Assembly (NCBI GenBank): GCA_026785795.1
Contig: JAJAZJ010000285.1
Location: 1 to 14,042 of the forward strand
DNA length: 14,042 bases
Direction of reading: 5' to 3'
Origin: Pseudoxanthomonas sp.
Lineage (GTDB): Bacteria; Pseudomonadota; Gammaproteobacteria; Xanthomonadales; Xanthomonadaceae
Each line of letters opens with the position of its first letter. Positions within the stretch are counted from its first letter, which is position 1. Under the pieces are notes generated by a model. The model searched no databases and was not told where the DNA came from. It saw nothing but the letters and a program-made list of their open reading frames with translations. Both the position numbers and the translations under genes were made by a program. Below are positions 455 through 10,627 of the stretch, piece after piece.

Positions 455-2635
455 TCACAGCAGCTGCAGGTTGGCATAGGCCAGTACCAGCCACTTGCTG
501 CCCTCGTCGTCGAAGTTGACCTGTACGCGGGCGTGCGCACCGCTGCCCTCGTAGTCCGTCACCACGCCCTGGCCGAATTTGGCGTGCTGCACGTTGGCGC
601 CCAGGCTGAGCGGTGCAGGATCCAGGGGTACATGCGCACCCCTGTGCGCAGCGCCGGCAGGCGAAGGGCGCATTGCGGTGACTGACTTGGGGCGCACCTC
701 ATGCAGCAGGTGTGGCGGCAGCTCACGCAGGAAGCGCGAAGGCGGGTTGTAGGTGTCCTGGCCGTGGATGCGCCTGGTTTCGGCGTAGCTGATCACGAGC
801 TTTTGGCGCGCACGGGTAATTCCCACGTACGCCAGGCGGCGCTCTTCTTCCAGGCGCCCGCTTTCCTCCAGCGATTTGCCGCTGGGGAACAGGCCCTCCT
901 CCAGGCCGCTCAGGAACACCACCGGGAACTCCAGTCCCTTGGCCGAATGCAGGGTCATCAGCTGCACGCCGTCCTCGTCGGCCTGGGCCTGGCCCTCACC
1001 GGCTTCCAGCGAGGCATAGGCAAGGAAAGCGACCAGGTCGGACATGCCTTCCAGCTCCTCTTCATCGCGGCGCACGAAGCGCGAGGCGACCGACACCAGT
1101 TCATCCAGGTTGTCGGTGCGCGAATCTAGCTGGCCCTTGCTCTCATTGAGATAGAAATCGCGCAGGCCAGACCGCACCAGCACATGGTCGATCTTGTCCT
1201 TGAGCTCCAACTCGGCGCTCCCGACAGCCAGTCCCTCGATCAGGGCGATGAACCCAGCCAGCGCGTTGCGCGCGCGCGCGGACAGCTCGTTGCCGGTGGA
1301 AAGCGCAAGCGCCGCCGCGAACAGTGACTGCGCCTGCTCACGCGCGCGCTTGCGCACTTCGTCCAGGGTACGGTCGCCAATGCCGCGCGTGGGCGTATTG
1401 ACCGCGCGCTCGAACGCCGCGTCGTCGTTACGATTGCCCACCAGACGCAGGTAGGCCAGAGTGTCCTTGATCTCGGCGCGCTCGAAGAAACGCATGCCGC
1501 CGTACACCCGGAACGGAACCCGCGGTTCAGCCTGCAGCCGCTCTTCGAAAGCGCGTGACTGGGCGTTGCTGCGGTACAGGATGGCGCAGTCGCCATGACT
1601 GCCGCCGTCGCGCACCCACTGGCGGATGCGTTCGACCACGAAACCTGCCTCATCCATCTCGCTGTAGGCGGCATAGACGTCGATGGGGTCGCCGTCGCCG
1701 GCCTCGGTCCACAGCTGCTTGCCGATGCGCCCGGGATTGTGCGCGATCACCGCATTCGCGGCGCCCAGGATGTTGGACGTGGAGCGGTAGTTCTGCTCCA
1801 GGCGGACGGTCTGCGCGCTGGGGAAGTCCTTCAGGAACTGCTGTACGTTCTCCACCTTCGCACCACGCCAGCCATAGATGGCCTGGTCGTCATCGCCGAC
1901 CACGAACACATGCCCGCTGTCACCCGCGAGCAGGCGCACGAATCCGTACTGGATGGCGTTGGTGTCCTGGAATTCGTCCACCAGAATCTCGCGAAAGCGC
2001 GCGCGGTAGTGCGAAAGCAGCGCCGTGTGATCACGCAGCAGCTCATGCGCGCGCAGCAGCAGCTCGGCGAAATCAACCAGCCCAGCACGATCGCAGCGCT
2101 CCTGGTAGAGCGCATAGGCGCGGCGCAGGGTGTCGGTCCACGGGTCGTCGCCCGGCTGGATGTGCTGCGCGCGGCGGCCTTCGTCTTTCTGCGCATTGAT
2201 CCACCACGCGATCTGCCGCGGCGGGAAGCGGTTGTCATCCAGCTCCATCTGCTGCACCACCCGCTTGACCAGGCGCAGCTGGTCGTCCGAATCCAGCACC
2301 TGGAAGCTTTCCGGCAGCCCGGCTTCCTGCCAGTGCATGCGCAGCAGGCGATGGGCCAGACCGTGGAAGGTGCCTATCCACATGCCACGGCTGCCGTTGC
2401 GCAGCTGCAGGTCGGCGCGGTGGCGCATCTCCCCGGCCGCCTTGTTGGTGAAAGTGACCGCGAAGATGCCGTGCACCGGTACGCCGTGCACTTCGTTGAG
2501 CCATGCGATGCGATGGGTCAGCACCCGGGTCTTGCCGGAACCGGCGCCGGCCAGCACCAGATAGTGCCCGGGCGCGGCGGACACGGCCTCGCGCTGGGCG
2601 GGATTCAGTTCATCGAGCAGGTGGGAGACATCCAT
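455..2635 (-). CDS. uvrD: DNA helicase II (UvrD, superfamily 1A 3'-5' helicase)
   Basis: 726 residues, close to the ~720 of E. coli UvrD. UvrD is an ATP-driven 3'-5' helicase that removes excised strands in nucleotide excision and mismatch repair and strips RecA from DNA. All motifs are in order: Walker A AGAGSGKT (29-36), motif Ia TFTNKAAGEM (61-70), Walker B LVDEFQDTN (218-226), motif III VVGDDDQAIYGWRG (245-258), motif IV QNYRST (281-286), motif V TLHSAKGLEF (561-570) and motif VI RLAYVGITRAR (600-610). Residues 678-726 form the C-terminal Tudor-like module of the UvrD/PcrA group, which favours UvrD over Rep. The N-terminus MDVSHLLDELNPAQREAV matches the family start, although no good Shine-Dalgarno sequence precedes it. 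The gene is 30 bases downstream of the sensor gene on the same strand, so they may share a transcript. Nothing appears missing. Confidence 0.97.
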   Translation of the reverse strand: MDVSHLLDELNPAQREAVSAAPGHYLVLAGAGSGKTRVLTHRIAWLNEVHGVPVHGIFAVTFTNKAAGEMRHRADLQLRNGSRGMWIGTFHGLAHRLLRMHWQEAGLPESFQVLDSDDQLRLVKRVVQQMELDDNRFPPRQIAWWINAQKDEGRRAQHIQPGDDPWTDTLRRAYALYQERCDRAGLVDFAELLLRAHELLRDHTALLSHYRARFREILVDEFQDTNAIQYGFVRLLAGDSGHVFVVGDDDQAIYGWRGAKVENVQQFLKDFPSAQTVRLEQNYRSTSNILGAANAVIAHNPGRIGKQLWTEAGDGDPIDVYAAYSEMDEAGFVVERIRQWVRDGGSHGDCAILYRSNAQSRAFEERLQAEPRVPFRVYGGMRFFERAEIKDTLAYLRLVGNRNDDAAFERAVNTPTRGIGDRTLDEVRKRAREQAQSLFAAALALSTGNELSARARNALAGFIALIEGLAVGSAELELKDKIDHVLVRSGLRDFYLNESKGQLDSRTDNLDELVSVASRFVRRDEEELEGMSDLVAFLAYASLEAGEGQAQADEDGVQLMTLHSAKGLEFPVVFLSGLEEGLFPSGKSLEESGRLEEERRLAYVGITRARQKLVISYAETRRIHGQDTYNPPSRFLRELPPHLLHEVRPKSVTAMRPSPAGAAHRGAHVPLDPAPLSLGANVQHAKFGQGVVTDYEGSGAHARVQVNFDDEGSKWLVLAYANLQLL

Positions 2636-2665: not shown

Positions 2666-5641
2666 CTATTTCGTCAACAGCGACAGGACGGCGTCGAAAG
2701 ACGCGGGCCTGGCCATCAGGTAACCCTGCATTTCGTCACAACCATTGGCCACCAGCCAGTCCCGCTGCTGCTCGGTTTCCACCCCTTCACCGACGGTATG
2801 CAGCCCCAGGTTGTGCGCCAGGGCAATGATTGAGCTGCAGATGGAGCCTGCATCGCGGTCATCGGGCAGGTCCTTGACGAAAGAACGGTCAATTTTCAGC
2901 CGGTGAATGGGCAAACGCTTGAGGTAGGCCAGGCTGGAGTAACCCGCACCGAAGTCGTCGATCGACAGGCACACACCCAGGTCGGCAAGCCGACGCATGG
3001 TCTGGATCACGCCGTCAGGGTTGTCCATGATTACGCTCTCGGTGAGCTCCAGCTCCAGCACCCCGTGGGGAAGTGAGAAATCTCGCACCACATCGGCAAC
3101 GTCCTGCTCCAGCGTATGCGCGAACTGGGTAGCAGACACATTCACTGCGAGGCGCAGATGACCCAGCCCGGCAGCGGCCAGCAAAGCGTGATGCCTGGCC
3201 GCTTCATGCAGGGTGCGCCGGCCCAGCTCCACAATCAGCCCGCTTTCCTCGCAAGCCTGGATGAATTCCGAGGGCGGAAGCAGGCCGCGCTGTGGATGCT
3301 GCCAGCGCGCCAGGCACTCCAGGGCGCGCGGCCGCCCGTCGCGGTCGTAGATCGGCTGGAATGCAAGCACGAACTGCTTTTTTTCAAGGGCTTCGCGCAA
3401 GCTGCCTACCAGCTGCAGGCGTCGGGACACACTTTCCTTGAGCTGCGGGCTGTACTGGACGCTGCGGTTACGGCCCATGCGCTTGGCTTCGTACATGGCG
3501 ATGTCTGCGTGCTTGAGCAGGGTTTCGGCATCGTTGCCGCATTCCGGATAGGTGCACCAGCCGATGCTCTGGGTGAGCACGTGCTCGATGCCGGAAATGA
3601 ACATGGGCACGGACAAGGCGCGACTGGTGCGCGCAATCAGCCGGTGCACGCGCGCATCGTCCGTGAAGTCGGGCAGCAGGATCACGAACTCATCGCCACC
3701 AAACCGGCTGACCATGTCGCCTGGTTCAATTTCTTCCAACAGGCGCTGGGCGATCAGGGCCAGCGCCTCGTCACCCGCGGCATGATTCAGGCTGTCGTTG
3801 ACCAGCTTGAAATCATCGATATCGATGAACACCACGGCGACCCGGCGCCCGGCGCTTTCCGCGGCGGCGACCGCCATCTGCAGCCGGTCGCGGAGCAGCT
3901 GCCGGTTTGGCAGGCCAGTGAGCGCATCATGCGAGGCACGGTAGGCGAGCTGCTGCTCGTAGTGGTAGTGTTCGGAAACATCGTTCTGGATGCCCAGGAA
4001 ATGGGTGACCGTGCCGATGTCATCCACCACCGGCGCAACGTAGAAGTCATTCCAGAACATGGTGCCGTCCTTGCGGTAATTGCGAAGCCGCACCCAGGCC
4101 TCGCTCTGCTCGGCGATGGCGTGGCGTACGCCTTCCAGAGCAAGCTGCTCGCTGTCCTGCCCCTGCAGGAACCTGCAGTTGCGCCCCAGCACCTCGCTGG
4201 AGGCATAGCCGGTGATGCGCTCGAACGCAGGATTAACGTACACCAGCGGCATGTCCGGGGTCAGGGCGTCGGCGATCGCGATTCCACTGCCGCTGGCCTC
4301 CACCGCGCGGCTCAACAGCCGCAGCTGGCTGGTTGCGGCACGCTGTTCGCCCACGTCCACCATACCGCCCAGCATGCGACTGATCCGCCCGTCGGCCTCC
4401 CTGACCAGGAAACCGCGGTCAACCACCTCGACGTAGTGGCCGTCCTTGTGCAGGAACCGATAGGTCTGCTCCCACTCTTCGGCCGTAGAGCCGCTGTCGA
4501 CTTCGGCCAGGGAAGCGAGCACCCGTTCACGATCGTCGGGGTGGACCAAGCCGGTCCAGGCACTAATCGTCGGCTCAATTTCGGCCTCGTGGTAGCCGAA
4601 CGTGCGATAGAAACTCGTGCTCCACCACAGGCTGCCGCTGGCGAGGTCCCAATCCCAGACCGCGTCGCTGGTAGCGCGCGAGATCAGCTCGAAGCGCTTC
4701 TGGTCGTGTTCGCTTCGTGTGGCATCCTGGGCAACCACCTGTTGCGCTTGTTCAAGCCGCGCAGCGCTGCCGCGCAGATCTTCCAGCAGTCGGTCCTGTT
4801 CGGCATTCACAGCGCGATGGGCGCGCAACAGCCACAGCCACATCAGCACCAGAACGCCGGCGATCAGCAGGGAAGTAAGCAGGAACAACCAGGCCGGGGC
4901 AGAGATGACGTCACCTGGATGGCTTACCAAAATGGTCAGCGGGGTGCCCGCAACGCGCTGATAGACGAAAAAGCGCGTCTGTTCGTCCACCAGGCTCTTG
5001 CCCTGGAACCAGCCACGCCGAGAGGAAAGATTTGCAGTCCGGAATATCCACAGCTCCGGAAACGGCTTGCCGGTCAAGCCGACATTATTCTCGGCGCGCA
5101 CGTAGATACGTCGTGAATCGTGCACCAGGCTGATAGCGCTGCCGCTGCCCAGACTGCGTTCGCGCAGCAGCTGCACAAACCATTCCGGATCCAGCTCTAC
5201 GAGGACGCGGGTCCCGGTGCCGTCACCCCAGGTCGCCTGCAGGAAGTTAGATCCCTCCTGCGGCGGCAGCAGCACCAGCGCTGGGCCAGCGCGCAGCTGC
5301 GCCGCAGACTCCGTGTGCTCCGCCAGCGAAAGACGGTGGATCAGGGAATCATGCCAGGCAGGCAGAGGCGCATCCGTTGCCGGCACCTGCGCAGCGTAGT
5401 CTTGCAGCTCCTGCCCGAGCTGCTTCAGCCGGTCACGCAGCTGCCGCTCGATGCCCTCGGCCACCAGATAGGAGCGTGACACCGCCTGCTGGTGCAGTAG
5501 ATGCTGTTCGCGCCAAGCCAGCAGCAGGGCAAGCAACACAAGCGTGCAGGACAGGACCACGCCCAGCACCAGAAACCGCCTCCAGCCGGGAACAATGACC
5601 CCGGCAGGGGTGGATGTACTCTTTTCGCCTGTGCCTTCCAT
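2666..5641 (-). CDS. Membrane-bound PAS-LOV-GGDEF-EAL cyclic-di-GMP enzyme, putative blue-light sensor
   Basis: 991 residues from the chosen ATG. Order: short cytoplasmic start, membrane helix (~22-43), ~200-residue periplasmic domain (44-249) resembling PDC/dCache sensors, second helix (~250-272), likely coiled coil (~280-315), PAS_3-type PAS with HPDD (~317-431), LOV-type PAS (~443-556), GGDEF domain (~566-731) and EAL domain (~746-991). The LOV part has GRNCRFLQG with Cys489, plus Arg506, Asn521, Asn531 and Gln552, the residues that hold FMN in LOV proteins. GGDEF (648-652) is intact. The I-site position reads EPGD (639-642), not RxxD. The EAL motif reads ECL (775-777), but the metal and catalytic residues are present: Glu775, Asn834, Glu865, Asp895, Asp896, Lys916, Glu952 and Gln972. 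It could therefore make and/or break cyclic-di-GMP in response to a periplasmic ligand and light. Light sensing is inferred. A GTG at 5668 would add nine residues but has no ribosome site; the ATG at 5641 does. Confidence 0.93.
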   Translation of the reverse strand: MEGTGEKSTSTPAGVIVPGWRRFLVLGVVLSCTLVLLALLLAWREQHLLHQQAVSRSYLVAEGIERQLRDRLKQLGQELQDYAAQVPATDAPLPAWHDSLIHRLSLAEHTESAAQLRAGPALVLLPPQEGSNFLQATWGDGTGTRVLVELDPEWFVQLLRERSLGSGSAISLVHDSRRIYVRAENNVGLTGKPFPELWIFRTANLSSRRGWFQGKSLVDEQTRFFVYQRVAGTPLTILVSHPGDVISAPAWLFLLTSLLIAGVLVLMWLWLLRAHRAVNAEQDRLLEDLRGSAARLEQAQQVVAQDATRSEHDQKRFELISRATSDAVWDWDLASGSLWWSTSFYRTFGYHEAEIEPTISAWTGLVHPDDRERVLASLAEVDSGSTAEEWEQTYRFLHKDGHYVEVVDRGFLVREADGRISRMLGGMVDVGEQRAATSQLRLLSRAVEASGSGIAIADALTPDMPLVYVNPAFERITGYASSEVLGRNCRFLQGQDSEQLALEGVRHAIAEQSEAWVRLRNYRKDGTMFWNDFYVAPVVDDIGTVTHFLGIQNDVSEHYHYEQQLAYRASHDALTGLPNRQLLRDRLQMAVAAAESAGRRVAVVFIDIDDFKLVNDSLNHAAGDEALALIAQRLLEEIEPGDMVSRFGGDEFVILLPDFTDDARVHRLIARTSRALSVPMFISGIEHVLTQSIGWCTYPECGNDAETLLKHADIAMYEAKRMGRNRSVQYSPQLKESVSRRLQLVGSLREALEKKQFVLAFQPIYDRDGRPRALECLARWQHPQRGLLPPSEFIQACEESGLIVELGRRTLHEAARHHALLAAAGLGHLRLAVNVSATQFAHTLEQDVADVVRDFSLPHGVLELELTESVIMDNPDGVIQTMRRLADLGVCLSIDDFGAGYSSLAYLKRLPIHRLKIDRSFVKDLPDDRDAGSICSSIIALAHNLGLHTVGEGVETEQQRDWLVANGCDEMQGYLMARPASFDAVLSLLTK

Positions 5642-5657: not shown

Positions 5658-5715
5658 GCTACCAACACGCCAGGTCAAGGGTACAACGGCATGCCAGCCA
5701 GTGTGCTTCAGCGAG

Positions 5716-5994
5716 TCAAGTGTGTTGCATCGCCTGAAGATGCGCATGGATAAAACGGTGCGCCGCAGGCTTGGCCCGATGCGTGGTCTGCTGCAGGAGG
5801 CAGCCAGTCCACGCAACACCAATGGCCGACAGTAGGAAAATGGCGTCGACGGTGGTGCCCAACATGGTCCCAGCGATGATGAAGTCGCGGCACGTTTCCG
5901 CGGCCCTCGCGTGGTTTCTGCGACCGTAAACGTCTCGGACGCTGCGCGCGGTGGCTCCCAGACAGGGGTCGGCGCTACACTCGTCGTCCCCCAT
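5716..5994 (-). CDS. Doubtful small ORF with one hydrophobic segment
   Basis: 92 codons from ATG 5992-5994 to TGA 5716-5718. No recognised family. The middle (residues ~39-65) is hydrophobic (FIIAGTMLGTTVDAIFLLSA and following), and the tail is His- and Gln-rich and ends in MQHT. An internal ATG at 5863-5865 would give about 49 residues, nearly all membrane segment plus tail. No convincing ribosome site precedes either start. The upstream part also overlaps the probable GST promoter on the other strand. It may be chance or the remnant of a small membrane protein. It is listed because it is the only frame with protein-like character in a 370-base gap. Confidence 0.15.
   Translation of the reverse strand: MGDDECSADPCLGATARSVRDVYGRRNHARAAETCRDFIIAGTMLGTTVDAIFLLSAIGVAWTGCLLQQTTHRAKPAAHRFIHAHLQAMQHT
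5976..5981 (+). promoter_or_regulatory. Possible -10 box (TACACT) for the yfcG gene
   Basis: TACACT matches four of six positions of the sigma-70 -10 consensus and lies 30 bases before the start codon, giving a short leader. There is no good -35 hexamer at the usual distance, so this is only a candidate. Confidence 0.3.
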
Positions 5995-6752: not shown

Positions 6753-8069
6753 ATGCAGCTCATGCTGGCCACAATAATGATGATTTCCACCGCCACGGCT
6801 CCCGCTCCCGCCATCGCAAGCAGCGAAGTGTCGCGCATGCAGCTCGATCCGATTGCCGAGGCCTACGTTCACCTGACCCTGGAGATCGGCGAGCACGAAC
6901 CGGGCTACGTCGATGCGTATTACGGCCCGGCGGCGTGGGCGCAGCAGGCCAAACGTGCACCGCGCCCGCTGCCGGGACTGCGTAGCGCTACCGAAACGCT
7001 GCTTGCGCAACTGTCTGCGGTTGATGAGGCCGCGCTGGCGCCTTTGGAAATCAAGCGCAAACGCCTGCTTGCCGCACAGCTGATCGCCGCCCGCACGCGC
7101 ATGGCGATGATTGCGGGCGAATCGTTGGACTTCGATCGCGAAGCCGAGGGCCTGTACGCACTGCGTCCCGCGCTTAAGCCCCTGTCTGCCTATGATCCAG
7201 CCCTGCTCAAGATTGAAACCCTGATCCCCGGCGAAGGCCCGCTGTGGCAGCGGGTGGATGCGTTTCTTGGCCGCACTGCGATTCCTTCGGCAAAATTGAC
7301 CGCGGTGATGCAGGCCTCCATCGCCGAATGCAGGCGGCGCACGGTCGAGCACATCGCCCTGCCTACCGGCGAGCAGTTCACCCTGCAGCTCGTCACCCAA
7401 CAGCCGTGGTCCGGCTACAACTGGTACCAGGGCAACGCGACCAGCCTGATCCAGATCAATACCGACCTGCCGGTGCTCATAAGCCGTGCCGTGGACCTGG
7501 GTTGCCATGAGGGCTATCCGGGACACCACGTGCTGAACCTGCTGCTGGAGCAGCGTCTGGCCCGGCAGCGTGGGTGGCAGGAGTTCACCGTCTATCCGCT
7601 GTACAGCCCGATGTCGCTGATCGCGGAGGGCTCGGCCAACTACGGCATTGAACTTGCGTTTCCCGACGATGAGAAGCAGGCCTTCGAACGTGACGTGCTG
7701 TATCCACTGGCGGGATTGGACCCGGCGCTGGCCGAACTCAACACACGGCTTGAGCAAGCACGCAGCGCGCTGTCAGGCGCTCGCCTGACCATTGCGCGCG
7801 ACTACCTGGATGGCCGCATCAGTCGTGCCGAAGCCGTGCGCCTGGCCCAGCACTACCAGCTGCTGTCTCCCGAGCGTGCGGAGCAGTCGATCGGCTTTAC
7901 CGACAAGTACCGCAGCTACGTCATCAACTATGGCCTGGGCCTGGACCTGGTACGCGCCCATGTGCAGGCTGCTGGCACCACCTCAGAAGCACGCTGGGCG
8001 ACGATGGAGCAGATCCTGTCCGAGCCCACCCTGCCGGCCGACCTGTTGCCCGTCGCGCAAACCCCCTAG
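6753..8069 (+). CDS. Exported DUF885-type metalloprotein (putative zinc peptidase)
   Basis: 438 residues. The start at ATG 6753 is supported by GGAG at 6742-6745 with seven bases between, and the frame is closed by a stop at 6726, so no longer form exists. The first ~22 residues are hydrophobic and end in APAIAS, like a signal peptide cut after an Ala, although the usual positive charge at the very start is missing. HEGYPGHH (252-259) is the zinc-site signature of DUF885, where HEAxPGHH is usual: His252 and Glu253 with His258/His259. AEGSANYGIE (291-300) probably supplies the third ligand (Glu292), as in related peptidases. Most of the protein is predicted helical. Substrate is unknown; a periplasmic or membrane-associated peptidase is the reasonable guess. 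It lies 24 bases after yfcG. Confidence 0.85.
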   Translation: MQLMLATIMMISTATAPAPAIASSEVSRMQLDPIAEAYVHLTLEIGEHEPGYVDAYYGPAAWAQQAKRAPRPLPGLRSATETLLAQLSAVDEAALAPLEIKRKRLLAAQLIAARTRMAMIAGESLDFDREAEGLYALRPALKPLSAYDPALLKIETLIPGEGPLWQRVDAFLGRTAIPSAKLTAVMQASIAECRRRTVEHIALPTGEQFTLQLVTQQPWSGYNWYQGNATSLIQINTDLPVLISRAVDLGCHEGYPGHHVLNLLLEQRLARQRGWQEFTVYPLYSPMSLIAEGSANYGIELAFPDDEKQAFERDVLYPLAGLDPALAELNTRLEQARSALSGARLTIARDYLDGRISRAEAVRLAQHYQLLSPERAEQSIGFTDKYRSYVINYGLGLDLVRAHVQAAGTTSEARWATMEQILSEPTLPADLLPVAQTP

Positions 8070-8156
8070 GCGCTTGCAATCGCGCGAGCTTGCTTTCAAG
8101 CCGCAGCGCCCTGTTCCGCGATGAGCTGATGGCCTTGGCCGGATGCCGCAGCCGGG

Positions 8157-8606
8157 TCAGGGCCTGGGCGCGGGTTCCGCCGGCGGGATGGAGGCGGCCG
8201 GCACCCGGATCGCCACGCCCGCGGCGCGCTTTTGCGTGGTCGGGATGCCAATGCCTATGCCGCCTGCCACATTGCTGCCGAAGCTGCCGGCACCCACCGA
8301 CATGCCGCCGGCGGACGGCGTGGAGCCCACGCCCAGCAGCACCACCCCGTTCGCGCCCAGCGCGGCCGCTTCGCGCTTCAGTCGATCAACGGCGGCGTCG
8401 GTTTGGCCCTGGGTGCCGAAACCCATTGCGCTGGAAGACTCCAGCTGGGCGATTTCGACCGAGCCCGGCGGCGGCGTGGTGTAGATACGCACCTGCGACG
8501 GGTCGACCGGGGCATAGGATTGGCCCAGCATGACCCTTGAGCTGCTGGCGCAGGCACCCAGCGCAGAAGCCAGCAGCAGCGCGACGGCAAGACGGATGAC
8601 GGTCAT
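8157..8606 (-). CDS. Small lipoprotein, hypothetical
   Basis: 149 residues from ATG 8604-8606, preceded on the minus strand by AAAGGA eight bases away. Upstream in-frame codons would extend it to 165 residues, but those 16 would bury the signal sequence. The signal peptide MTVIRLAVALLLASALGAC ends in a lipobox with Cys19; Ala at +2 predicts outer-membrane sorting by Lol. The mature part has VRIYTTPPPGSVEIAQLESS, then an acid/base helix (DAAVDRLKREAAALGANGVV) and LLGVG. The pattern of strand, helix with repeated Ala, and 'GANGVVLL' resembles the RcsF/YbjQ fold, but this is a weak visual likeness. The rest is Gly/Ser-rich (SAGGMSVGAGSFGSNVAGGI) and then Pro/Ala-rich. Function is unknown. The gene diverges from the small membrane protein gene at 8758. 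Confidence 0.8.
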   Translation of the reverse strand: MTVIRLAVALLLASALGACASSSRVMLGQSYAPVDPSQVRIYTTPPPGSVEIAQLESSSAMGFGTQGQTDAAVDRLKREAAALGANGVVLLGVGSTPSAGGMSVGAGSFGSNVAGGIGIGIPTTQKRAAGVAIRVPAASIPPAEPAPRP

Positions 8607-8650
8607 GGCGGGGTTCCTTTGGGACGGCATGGGCGGATGATCCGCTGAAA

Positions 8651-8664
8651 CCACTGAATAGTGG
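8651..8664. repeat. Short inverted repeat CCACT-GAAT-AGTGG in the divergent control region
   Basis: Five-base arms separated by four bases, 45-58 bases upstream of the lipoprotein start and within the 151-base divergent intergenic region. It could be an operator half-pair, but five-base arms occur often by chance. Confidence 0.25.
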
Positions 8665-8701
8665 CATACCTCGCGCTGCTGCTGCGTCGCCGCCCCCGGA
8701 T

Positions 8702-8732
8702 TTGCGGATTCCCTGCATCGTTGCGCTATAGT
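8702..8732 (+). promoter_or_regulatory. Probable sigma-70-type promoter for the small membrane protein gene
   Basis: TTGCGG (8702-8707) and TATAGT (8727-8732) are separated by 19 bases, a little longer than ideal. The -10 box is a five-of-six match. Predicted transcription would start near 8739, leaving a leader of about 19 bases with the ribosome site GGAG at 8747-8750. Confidence 0.5.
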
Positions 8733-8757
8733 CCGCCGAGTTCAACGGAGCATGGGC

Positions 8758-9006
8758 ATGGGTTTGATCAGCTTGATTTGGGGCATTGCCGGCATGGTGT
8801 TCATGGTCCTGGCCTTGATCCCGCTGCTGGGCTGGGCCAACTGGATCGTGATCCCGTTTGCCGTGGTCGGCGCCATCATTGCCGCGATCGGCATCCTGTT
8901 CACTTCGAAAGCAAACAACGGCCGCGCCAAGGCGGGCCTGCTGCTGAACGGGATCGTGATCGTGGTGGGCATCGTGCGCCTGGGTATCGGCGGCGGCGTA
9001 ATCTGA
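8758..9006 (+). CDS. Small three-helix inner-membrane protein, hypothetical
   Basis: 82 residues from the ATG at 8758. An ATG six bases earlier (8752) is only one base from the GGAG ribosome site at 8747-8750, while the one at 8758 is seven bases away and is preferred. Three hydrophobic segments are visible: ~3-24 (LISLIWGIAGMVFMVLALIP), ~30-49 (IVIPFAVVGAIIAAIGILFT) and ~59-77 (AGLLLNGIVIVVGIVRLGIG). They are separated by a short GWANW turn and a charged, Asn-rich loop (SKANNGRAKA). The architecture recalls small DUF4190-like membrane proteins, but I cannot assign a family. It has its own promoter-like sequence and converges on the ABC transporter operon 47 bases away. Function unknown. Confidence 0.8.
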   Translation: MGLISLIWGIAGMVFMVLALIPLLGWANWIVIPFAVVGAIIAAIGILFTSKANNGRAKAGLLLNGIVIVVGIVRLGIGGGVI

Positions 9007-9053
9007 CACCACCCCCGCAGCGCCTGTCGGCGGCGCAGCGGCCCAAGAATCCG

Positions 9054-10627
9054 CTAGGCCCCGGCGCCGACAGCCTGTATCGGCGCGGGCCGAGCCGCGA
9101 CCAGCGCGCGCGTGTGCGGGTGTTGCGGATTGCCCAGTACCTCCACCGTCGATCCGGTTTCCACGATCCGGCCTGCCTCCAGCACCGCGATGCGTTCGGC
9201 CACGGTCGACGCCGCGGCCAGGTCATGGGTGACGAACAGCAGAGCCAGCCCGCGCTCGCGCTTCAGCCGCGACAGCAGCGCTAGGATCGACGCGCGGTGG
9301 TGGGCATCCAGCGCCGAGACGGCCTCGTCGCAGACCAGCAGGTCCGGCGAGGTGGCGAGCGCCCGGGCGATGGCAATACGCTGGCGCTGGCCGCCGGAAA
9401 ACTGGTGCGGATGGCGGTCCAGCGCATCGGCGTCCAGGCCCACGGTCTCCAGCAATTCCAGCGCTTGTGCGCGCCGGACAGCGCCATTGCCGATGCCGTG
9501 GATGCGCAGGGGCTCTGCGATGACGTCGGCAATGCTGAGGCGCGGATCCAGCGATGCATAGGGATCCTGGAACACCACGCCCATACGCCGTCGCAACTTG
9601 CGCAATCCCGCCGCGTCCAGTGAATCCAGCGCAACGCCATCCAGGGTGATGCGGCCGGACGCGCCACGCAGCAACTGCAGCAGCGCACGGCCCAGCGTGC
9701 TCTTGCCGCTGCCGGATTCACCCACCAAGGCCAGGCCTTCCCCGCGGTGCAGCCTCACGCTGACGCCACCCAGCGCATCGCTCCTGGCGCCGCGATAGCG
9801 CATACGCAGGTTCTCGGCCTGCAGCAACACCGGCGCACCCGTGGCGGGCCTTGGCAGTGCGTGCAGCTGGTCTGCAGCGAGTAGTTCGCGCGTATACGCA
9901 TGCTGGGGAGCGGTGAATACGGCGCGGGTGTCACCTCGCTCCACCACTGCGCCACGCTGCAGCACCAGCACGTGCTGCGCGTAGGCACCAACCAGGGGCA
10001 GGTTGTGGCTGATCAAAAGCAGGCCCAGGTTTTCCTCGCGTCGCAGCGCATCCAGCAGGTCGAGGATGTCGCGGGCGATGCGTGCATCGAGCGCTGAAGT
10101 TGGCTCGTCGGCAATCAGGATGCGTGGCTGCGTGGCAAGCGCCAGGGCGATGGAGATGCGCTGGCGCTGGCCACCGGAGAAGGTGTGTGGATACTTGCTC
10201 ATTGCCTGTCGCGGATCCGGCAACTGCACGCGCGTCAGCAGGGCTTCGGCCTCGGCCTGCGCGACCTGGCGCGACATGCCACGTCCGATCCGCAGTGTTT
10301 CCACCAGCTGCGCGCCAATGCGGCGCAGCGGATGCAGTGCGGCCAGCGGATCCTGTGGCACCAGTCCAAACACGCGGCCACGCAAGGCGGCATGTTCGCG
10401 AGAACCAAAACCTATCTCCTGCCCGTCCACACGCAGCCTGGCCTGCCCGCGCAGACCTGCCGGCAGCAATCCCAGCAGCGCCAGCGAAGTCAGGCTCTTG
10501 CCACTGCCCGATTCACCCACCAGTCCCACGCACTCACCGCCATGCAATTCGAGCGAAAGTCCAGCAAGCAGCTCATGCGCGCCGGCGGTTACACGCAGTT
10601 CCGAGAGTTCAATATGGGTGTGGGGGA

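Follow-up and report, generated by a model that had tools for sequence, protein, structure and literature searches.

Described LOV c-di-GMP enzymes and the Pseudoxanthomonas locus

About 18% of bacterial LOV proteins carry a GGDEF domain or GGDEF and EAL domains, according to a 2014 survey (PMC4844311). We analysed a gene for a dCache-PAS-LOV-GGDEF-EAL protein, a predicted enzyme of cyclic di-GMP (c-di-GMP) metabolism, on a 14,042-nucleotide stretch of Pseudoxanthomonas sp. DNA (contig JAJAZJ010000285.1 of assembly GCA_026785795.1; hereafter the window). The described protein most like it in layout is Rsp0254 of Ralstonia pseudosolanacearum, a predicted 1178-residue transmembrane (TM) LOV-GGDEF-EAL protein that was called a light photoreceptor (PMC8282871). 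Under its later name RprR it is described with a periplasmic Cache domain, three PAS-type domains and the LOV motif GRNCRFLH; few genes responded to blue light, a response that hardly depended on rprR, and phenotypes were found in the dark (PMC12802281). As far as these accounts go, the two papers disagree on the light response. Compared by described layout only, RprR and the window protein share a Cache domain, a membrane anchor, PAS domains including LOV, GGDEF and EAL. They differ in that HAMP is present in RprR, together with three PAS-type domains of which LOV is one, whereas the window protein has one PAS domain plus LOV and gave no Pfam match to HAMP (whole protein at E 0.01; residues 1-320 at E 1). 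It therefore does not have the RprR-like order Cache-TM-HAMP-three PAS with one LOV-GGDEF-EAL.

Other described proteins resemble parts of this design. SL2 of Synechococcus elongatus is a LOV-GGDEF-EAL protein with flavin mononucleotide (FMN), a Cys adduct and phosphodiesterase activity that is raised by blue light; the account consulted mentions no Cache domain or anchor for SL2, whereas the window protein has a dCache domain, two TM helices and an extra PAS domain (PMC8846402). RmcA of Pseudomonas aeruginosa likewise combines a periplasmic sensor, a TM helix, PAS domains of which the last is flavin-binding and LOV-like, GGDEF and EAL, but its periplasmic domain is a Venus flytrap and its PASd lacks the Cys and is described as using flavin adenine dinucleotide (FAD) as a redox switch (PMC12540587, PMC8846402). 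The sequence-only reading of the window had suggested that a membrane-bound version might be undescribed. This was wrong, since RprR/Rsp0254 is in print as a Cache-TM-PAS/LOV-GGDEF-EAL protein (PMC8282871, PMC12802281) and RmcA likewise joins GGDEF and EAL to a membrane part and to a LOV-like PAS domain that lacks the Cys (PMC12540587, PMC8846402). In Xanthomonas, the bacteriophytochrome XooBphP is reported to link light and c-di-GMP (PMC8846402). Among the papers searched, by genus and more widely, none dealt with a LOV c-di-GMP enzyme from either Pseudoxanthomonas or Lysobacter. The design of the window protein is thus already known from other bacteria, and what is new is the repeated replacement of a glutamine (Gln) in its relatives.

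The second PAS domain is predicted to be a complete LOV domain

Residues are numbered from an in-frame GTG at 5668 unless marked ATG, and coordinates are collected in Table 1. The motif GRNCRFLQG is present once in the window protein, in its second PAS domain only. Counted from the adduct Cys, Arg stands at +1 and +17, Asn at +32 and +42 and Gln at +63, which are the distances found in oat phototropin LOV2 (AsLOV2). The Cys placed at residue 489 by the sequence-only reading was confirmed; that number counts from the ATG at 5641 and becomes 498 from the GTG. Overall, 42 of 105 residues are identical with AsLOV2 412-516. We compared 22 AsLOV2 positions, which we take to be mostly flavin contacts; 15 are identical, including N449, C450, R451, Q454, R467, N482, N492, Q513 and D515, and seven differ (N414, V416, T418, N425, V463, I466 and L496). 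When the 141-residue LOV stretch was searched against PDB chains by phmmer, the best match had an E value of 4.7e-36 and 161 distinct sequences passed 1e-3, the best 60 of which were listed. Among the structural (VIA) matches listed, 49 of 50 were LOV proteins, with the MsLadC structure 8c05 as the top match, which agrees with a LOV/PAS fold; since LOV and dCache-type entries took up all of these lists, the absence of other folds there excludes nothing. Together, the sequence and the model suggest a complete LOV domain, as the sequence-only reading had claimed, with a likeness beyond chance. The domain would therefore be expected to bind flavin and respond to light.

The expectation that generic annotation would miss this domain also held, Pfam giving PAS_9/PAS only. 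A LOV-specific profile gave a divided answer: the NCBIfam YtvA blue-light model matched at E 6.2e-40, but its 137.3 bits lie below the whole-protein cut-off of 250. For the c-di-GMP network of this Pseudoxanthomonas relative, the domain means an added and complete predicted LOV input where annotation displays only PAS. Elsewhere in the same genome there was one second match to the LOV domain, a weak one (36% over 77 residues, at C230), and a regex search with a narrow pattern found no LOV motif in three other PAS stretches.

Similarity alone was rejected as proof of a LOV domain. We aligned the window domain with 24 stretches chosen from 80 loci, 23 of them usable (row L023 is no PAS stretch). 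Although 19 of the 24 rows are 40-49% identical to the window domain, the adduct Cys is present in none, and Gln in 9 of the 23 usable rows. Rows such as L006-L012 and L015-L019 are PAS-GGDEF-EAL proteins, mostly from Oxalobacteraceae, with GRNIGFLW-type motifs that lack the adduct Cys. Judged by sequence, these Cys-less domains are LOV-derived or sister PAS domains.

The relay glutamine is replaced repeatedly among relatives

A protein search scored 7991 candidates, of which 720 passed E 1e-30; the best 120 of the 720 were analysed, giving 121 rows with the query. The adduct Cys is present in 98 rows, 53 of them with Gln at the relay position and 45 without it. A tree was built from 85 rows, comprising the close family P0001-P0079 and six outgroup rows and leaving the other 36 aside, with the Cys and Gln columns excluded from tree building. 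Both residues are present in 41 of these rows, Cys only in 35, Gln only in one and neither in eight, and the Gln is replaced by Leu (27 rows), Ile (9), Met (6) or Val (1). On the careful tree the Gln position changes at least 11 times (10-12 over 200 of 1000 bootstrap trees; 12 on the quick tree), compared with 22-36 changes when labels were shuffled 200 times on one bootstrap tree, and the Cys position changes at least six times (6-7 over bootstrap trees). Such counts do not separate gain from loss; Gln is present in all six outgroup rows. On the quick tree, Gln is missing throughout a clade of 25 rows (support 88, unstarred), 21 of which have Cys. Positions corresponding to R451, N482 and N492 change two, three and one times on that tree, whereas there are 7 changes at Q454, 8 at R467 and 21 at F509 (Phe/Tyr); Gln is thus one of several loose contacts.

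The same pattern was observed across genomes. A search of 395 family genomes, in which two candidates were scored for each, matched the LOV protein at E 1e-160 or better in 39; these include the source genome and represent 14 of 54 genera. We analysed 29 of the matching loci for Cys and Gln, not counting that of the window. Cys is present in 20 of the 29, accompanied by Gln in five, Leu in 12 and Ile in three; the complete set is therefore the minority state there. The remaining nine loci lack Cys, and four of these have Gln, so loss of Cys is not always joined to loss of Gln. Cys-less sequences are without Gln in eight of nine tree rows but in five of nine genome loci, and a test for joint Cys/Gln loss on the tree, which had too few informative pairs, gave no significant result (median p 0.5).

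These counts establish a new evolutionary pattern, in which the relay Gln is repeatedly replaced and the Cys is mostly kept. About 350 natural LOV receptors without Gln are reported, and in most of them Leu or Ile takes its place (Dietler et al. 2022, PMC9098866). The same combination, a retained Cys with Leu or Ile as the main substitutes for Gln, recurs in many relatives of the window protein, which itself has Gln. The main text of that paper does not name Lysobacter, Luteimonas, Thermomonas or Xanthomonas. We tentatively suggest that the relatives form a natural series of LOV rewiring, in which Cys and most flavin contacts are selected and Gln is replaced repeatedly by Leu, Ile, Met or Val; this is possible, although we would not yet call it probable. 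If it is true, the signal leaves the flavin by a Gln-independent route, and the window protein, with its full Cys, Arg, Asn, Asn and Gln set, represents the complete state. The Gln in four of nine Cys-less genome loci, and in 9 of 23 Cys-less rows from Oxalobacteraceae and others, weighs against a simple ordered decay. Since family members of one layout differ naturally at Cys and Gln, Gln-free LOV signalling could be tested on natural proteins together with point mutants.

A second LOV-like PAS domain was seen upstream in several longer relatives (P0006, P0008-P0012, P0016-P0018, P0020 and P0079); Ser takes the place of the adduct Cys in it, in motifs such as GKDSRLLDF and GRDSRFLGF. P0007 and P0013 have Cys there (GHDCRFLRS and GHDCRFVRS).

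Membrane layout, catalytic domains and linker

The gene lies on the minus strand (5641-2666). We consider the ATG the likelier start because GGGAGG stands 10 bases upstream of it and the 97% relative P0002 is 991 residues long. From the N-terminus, the predicted order is TM, periplasmic double-Cache, TM, PAS, LOV, GGDEF and EAL. The predicted structure shows a dCache fold between the two TM helices, as expected of a double-Cache periplasmic sensor. At least two TM-like segments precede the PAS-LOV core in 66 of 79 close relatives, indicating that this predicted membrane layout is general among them.

In the EAL domain, all nine of the positions that we take to be catalytic (E, N, E, E, D, D, K, E and Q) are present. 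The GGDEF domain has an exact motif, and its inhibitory site reads ExxD where 96 of 121 family rows have RxxD, a feature that is common but not required. P0001-P0005 and P0025 form one clade, in which P0025 alone keeps RxxD. In long-linker MsLadC, a later paper by Vide et al. ties the inhibitory site to dark inhibition (PMC12805367). Vide et al. divide LOV-GGDEF enzymes into classes with linkers of 35 and 21 residues (PMC10396304). The window protein has LOV directly before GGDEF and, between D(I/V)(T/S) and DxLT, the 21 residues of the short-linker enzymes AoLadC and DpLadC, whereas MsLadC is described as belonging to the 35-residue class and as having no EAL or membrane part (PMC10396304). 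Since EAL, PAS and dCache are also present, the window protein differs from the LadC arrangement of a single LOV and a single C-terminal GGDEF domain. The linker is 21 residues long in 102 of the 121 family rows; 12 gave no reading and seven gave other values, probably from wrong-motif matches. In a separate clade of six rows (P0066, P0070 and P0074-P0077), GGNEF or GSNEF replaces GGDEF, with the LOV Cys in five and Gln in one; their output is possibly phosphodiesterase only.

Table 1. Features of the LOV-protein gene and its downstream neighbour in the window
Feature	Position	Strand	Remarks
dCache-PAS-LOV-GGDEF-EAL gene	2666..5641	-	ATG start, 991 residues; in-frame GTG at 5668 gives 1000 residues
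Transmembrane helix 1	5519..5575	-	Residues 32-50; Kyte-Doolittle mean 2.96 over 19 residues
Periplasmic double-Cache sensor domain	4892..5503	-	Residues about 56-259
Transmembrane helix 2	4826..4882	-	Residues 263-281; Kyte-Doolittle mean 2.48; within long model helix 252-319
PAS_3 domain	4367..4627	-	Residues 348-434; Pfam E 4.4e-30; without LOV motif
LOV domain core	3974..4315	-	Residues 452-565
Adduct cysteine Cys498 (AsLOV2 C450)	4175..4177	-	Codon TGC; Cys489 from ATG
Arg515 (AsLOV2 R467)	4124..4126	-	Motif distances and AsLOV2 comparison
Asn530 (AsLOV2 N482)	4079..4081	-	Motif distances and AsLOV2 comparison
Asn540 (AsLOV2 N492)	4049..4051	-	Motif distances and AsLOV2 comparison
Relay glutamine Gln561 (AsLOV2 Q513)	3986..3988	-	Motif distances and AsLOV2 comparison; replaced in many relatives
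LOV-GGDEF linker	3920..3982	-	21 residues, D563 of DVS to L583 of DALT; definition from PMC10396304
GGDEF domain	3464..3937	-	Exact GGDEF motif at 3686-3700
Inhibitory site	3716..3727	-	Residues 648-651; ExxD instead of RxxD
EAL domain	2705..3403	-	All checked catalytic residues present
uvrD (DNA helicase II)	455..2635	-	Follows the LOV gene after 30 bases; identifies the contig as Pseudoxanthomonas-like

Proposed light control of c-di-GMP and alternatives

Sequence and analogy make it most likely that the window protein hydrolyses c-di-GMP under the control of blue light and responds to a periplasmic cue as well. We think it probable, on balance, that it works as a dimeric inner-membrane enzyme with periplasmic and blue-light inputs and a net phosphodiesterase activity raised by light. 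The double-Cache domain would sense a small molecule in the periplasm, and the cytoplasmic LOV domain would bind FMN and form an adduct between the flavin and Cys498 in blue light. Protonation of flavin N5 would turn Gln561 and shift the LOV β-sheet and C-terminal helix, and the 21-residue linker would relay this shift to the GGDEF-EAL pair. Phosphodiesterase activity would then rise and c-di-GMP fall, most likely as in SL2. The net phosphodiesterase output, with an expected modest dynamic range, is suggested by the two intact catalytic sites, the linker class and the SL2 precedent. Several points weigh against this reading. Gln is often and Cys sometimes missing in relatives, so the family can do without light sensing. 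RprR, whose layout is nearly the same, is reported in its later study to act mostly independently of light (PMC12802281), and short-linker LOV-GGDEF enzymes without EAL are reported as light-activated cyclases, about 15-fold (PMC10396304), so a net cyclase output is conceivable here too.

Alternatively, the Cache domain could provide the main input, with the LOV domain, whether or not it is capable of photochemistry, acting as a relay that has no physiological role in light sensing. Cys-less versions persist in the family, and for RprR blue light is described as having few effects, whereas phenotypes that depend on rprR appeared in the dark (PMC12802281). However, an earlier paper describes RprR as light-responsive (PMC8282871), and the equivalents of N449, R451, N482, N492 and G511 are kept in 81-83 of the 85 tree rows and Cys in 76. 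We regard this reading as unlikely.

A net blue-light-activated diguanylate cyclase, by which light would raise c-di-GMP, seems to us similarly improbable. The GGDEF motif is intact, the inhibitory-site Arg is missing, so that weak product inhibition is expected there, and short-linker LOV-GGDEF enzymes are reported to be activated roughly 15-fold by light (PMC10396304). In opposition to this, the EAL domain is fully intact, SL2 is a phosphodiesterase (PMC8846402), and LOV-GGDEF pieces of LOV-GGDEF-EAL proteins are reported to be without light-regulated synthesis (PMC10396304, PMC8846402). A LOV-GGDEF fragment from M. loti with Met for Gln is reported as a light-repressed cyclase (PMC9098866); the sign of a light effect is therefore unreadable from layout.

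Least probable, and in our view rather doubtful, is that the LOV flavin serves mainly as a redox sensor with light incidental, as suggested by RmcA, a membrane PAS-GGDEF-EAL phosphodiesterase tuned by the redox state of the FAD in its PASd (PMC12540587), by the redox-active flavoprotein ancestry that Dietler et al. propose for LOV receptors (PMC9098866) and by the absence of Cys, with the GGDEF-EAL part retained, from nine of the 85 tree rows and from nine of the 29 genome loci, but opposed by the adduct Cys itself, which RmcA PASd lacks and which the window protein and 76 of the 85 rows have.

Genome context

The source genome is a 2.0-Mb assembly of 359 contigs that is 94.8% complete. Its matches to domains of interest comprise eight GGDEF, six EAL, two PilZ and one photolyase. 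A misplaced contig was considered and rejected because the neighbouring uvrD product is 86% identical to those of the named species P. gei, P. sacheonensis and P. yeongjuensis. Among 36 congeners, 34 match the window uvrD at 77-86% over nearly its full length, and the matches in G003 (90%) and G006 (72%) cover about 400 residues only. With up to 13 candidates scored per genome, the best match to the LOV protein in the same 36 genomes reached E 1.2e-120 at 38% identity. In 15 of the 29 relatives' loci, each viewed with a flank of about 1.5 kb, the LOV gene is followed directly by uvrD; we therefore consider loss of the gene in congeners likelier than a recent gain.

No tRNA was found in the window, and two further open reading frames (ORFs) gave no Pfam match at E 1e-5. 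The other genes have Pfam matches to a glutathione S-transferase (GST), an ABC-transporter ATPase, a permease, hemB (ALAD), aroE and a hexapeptide protein. The congener locus L145 has no LOV gene; its UPF0114 gene, which encodes 210 residues, stands between uvrD and GST. Between the LOV gene and GST in the window (5758-5964, minus strand) there is a remnant of a UPF0114-type gene that matches the last 67 residues of the congener's protein (36% identity, E 1.4e-9). L145 also has a 598-residue ORF at 7768-9564 that is missing at window positions 8069-8157, the ORF lists having been compared by eye; a window without it is in keeping with a genome of 2.0 Mb, as against 2.6-4.7 Mb in the 36 congeners.
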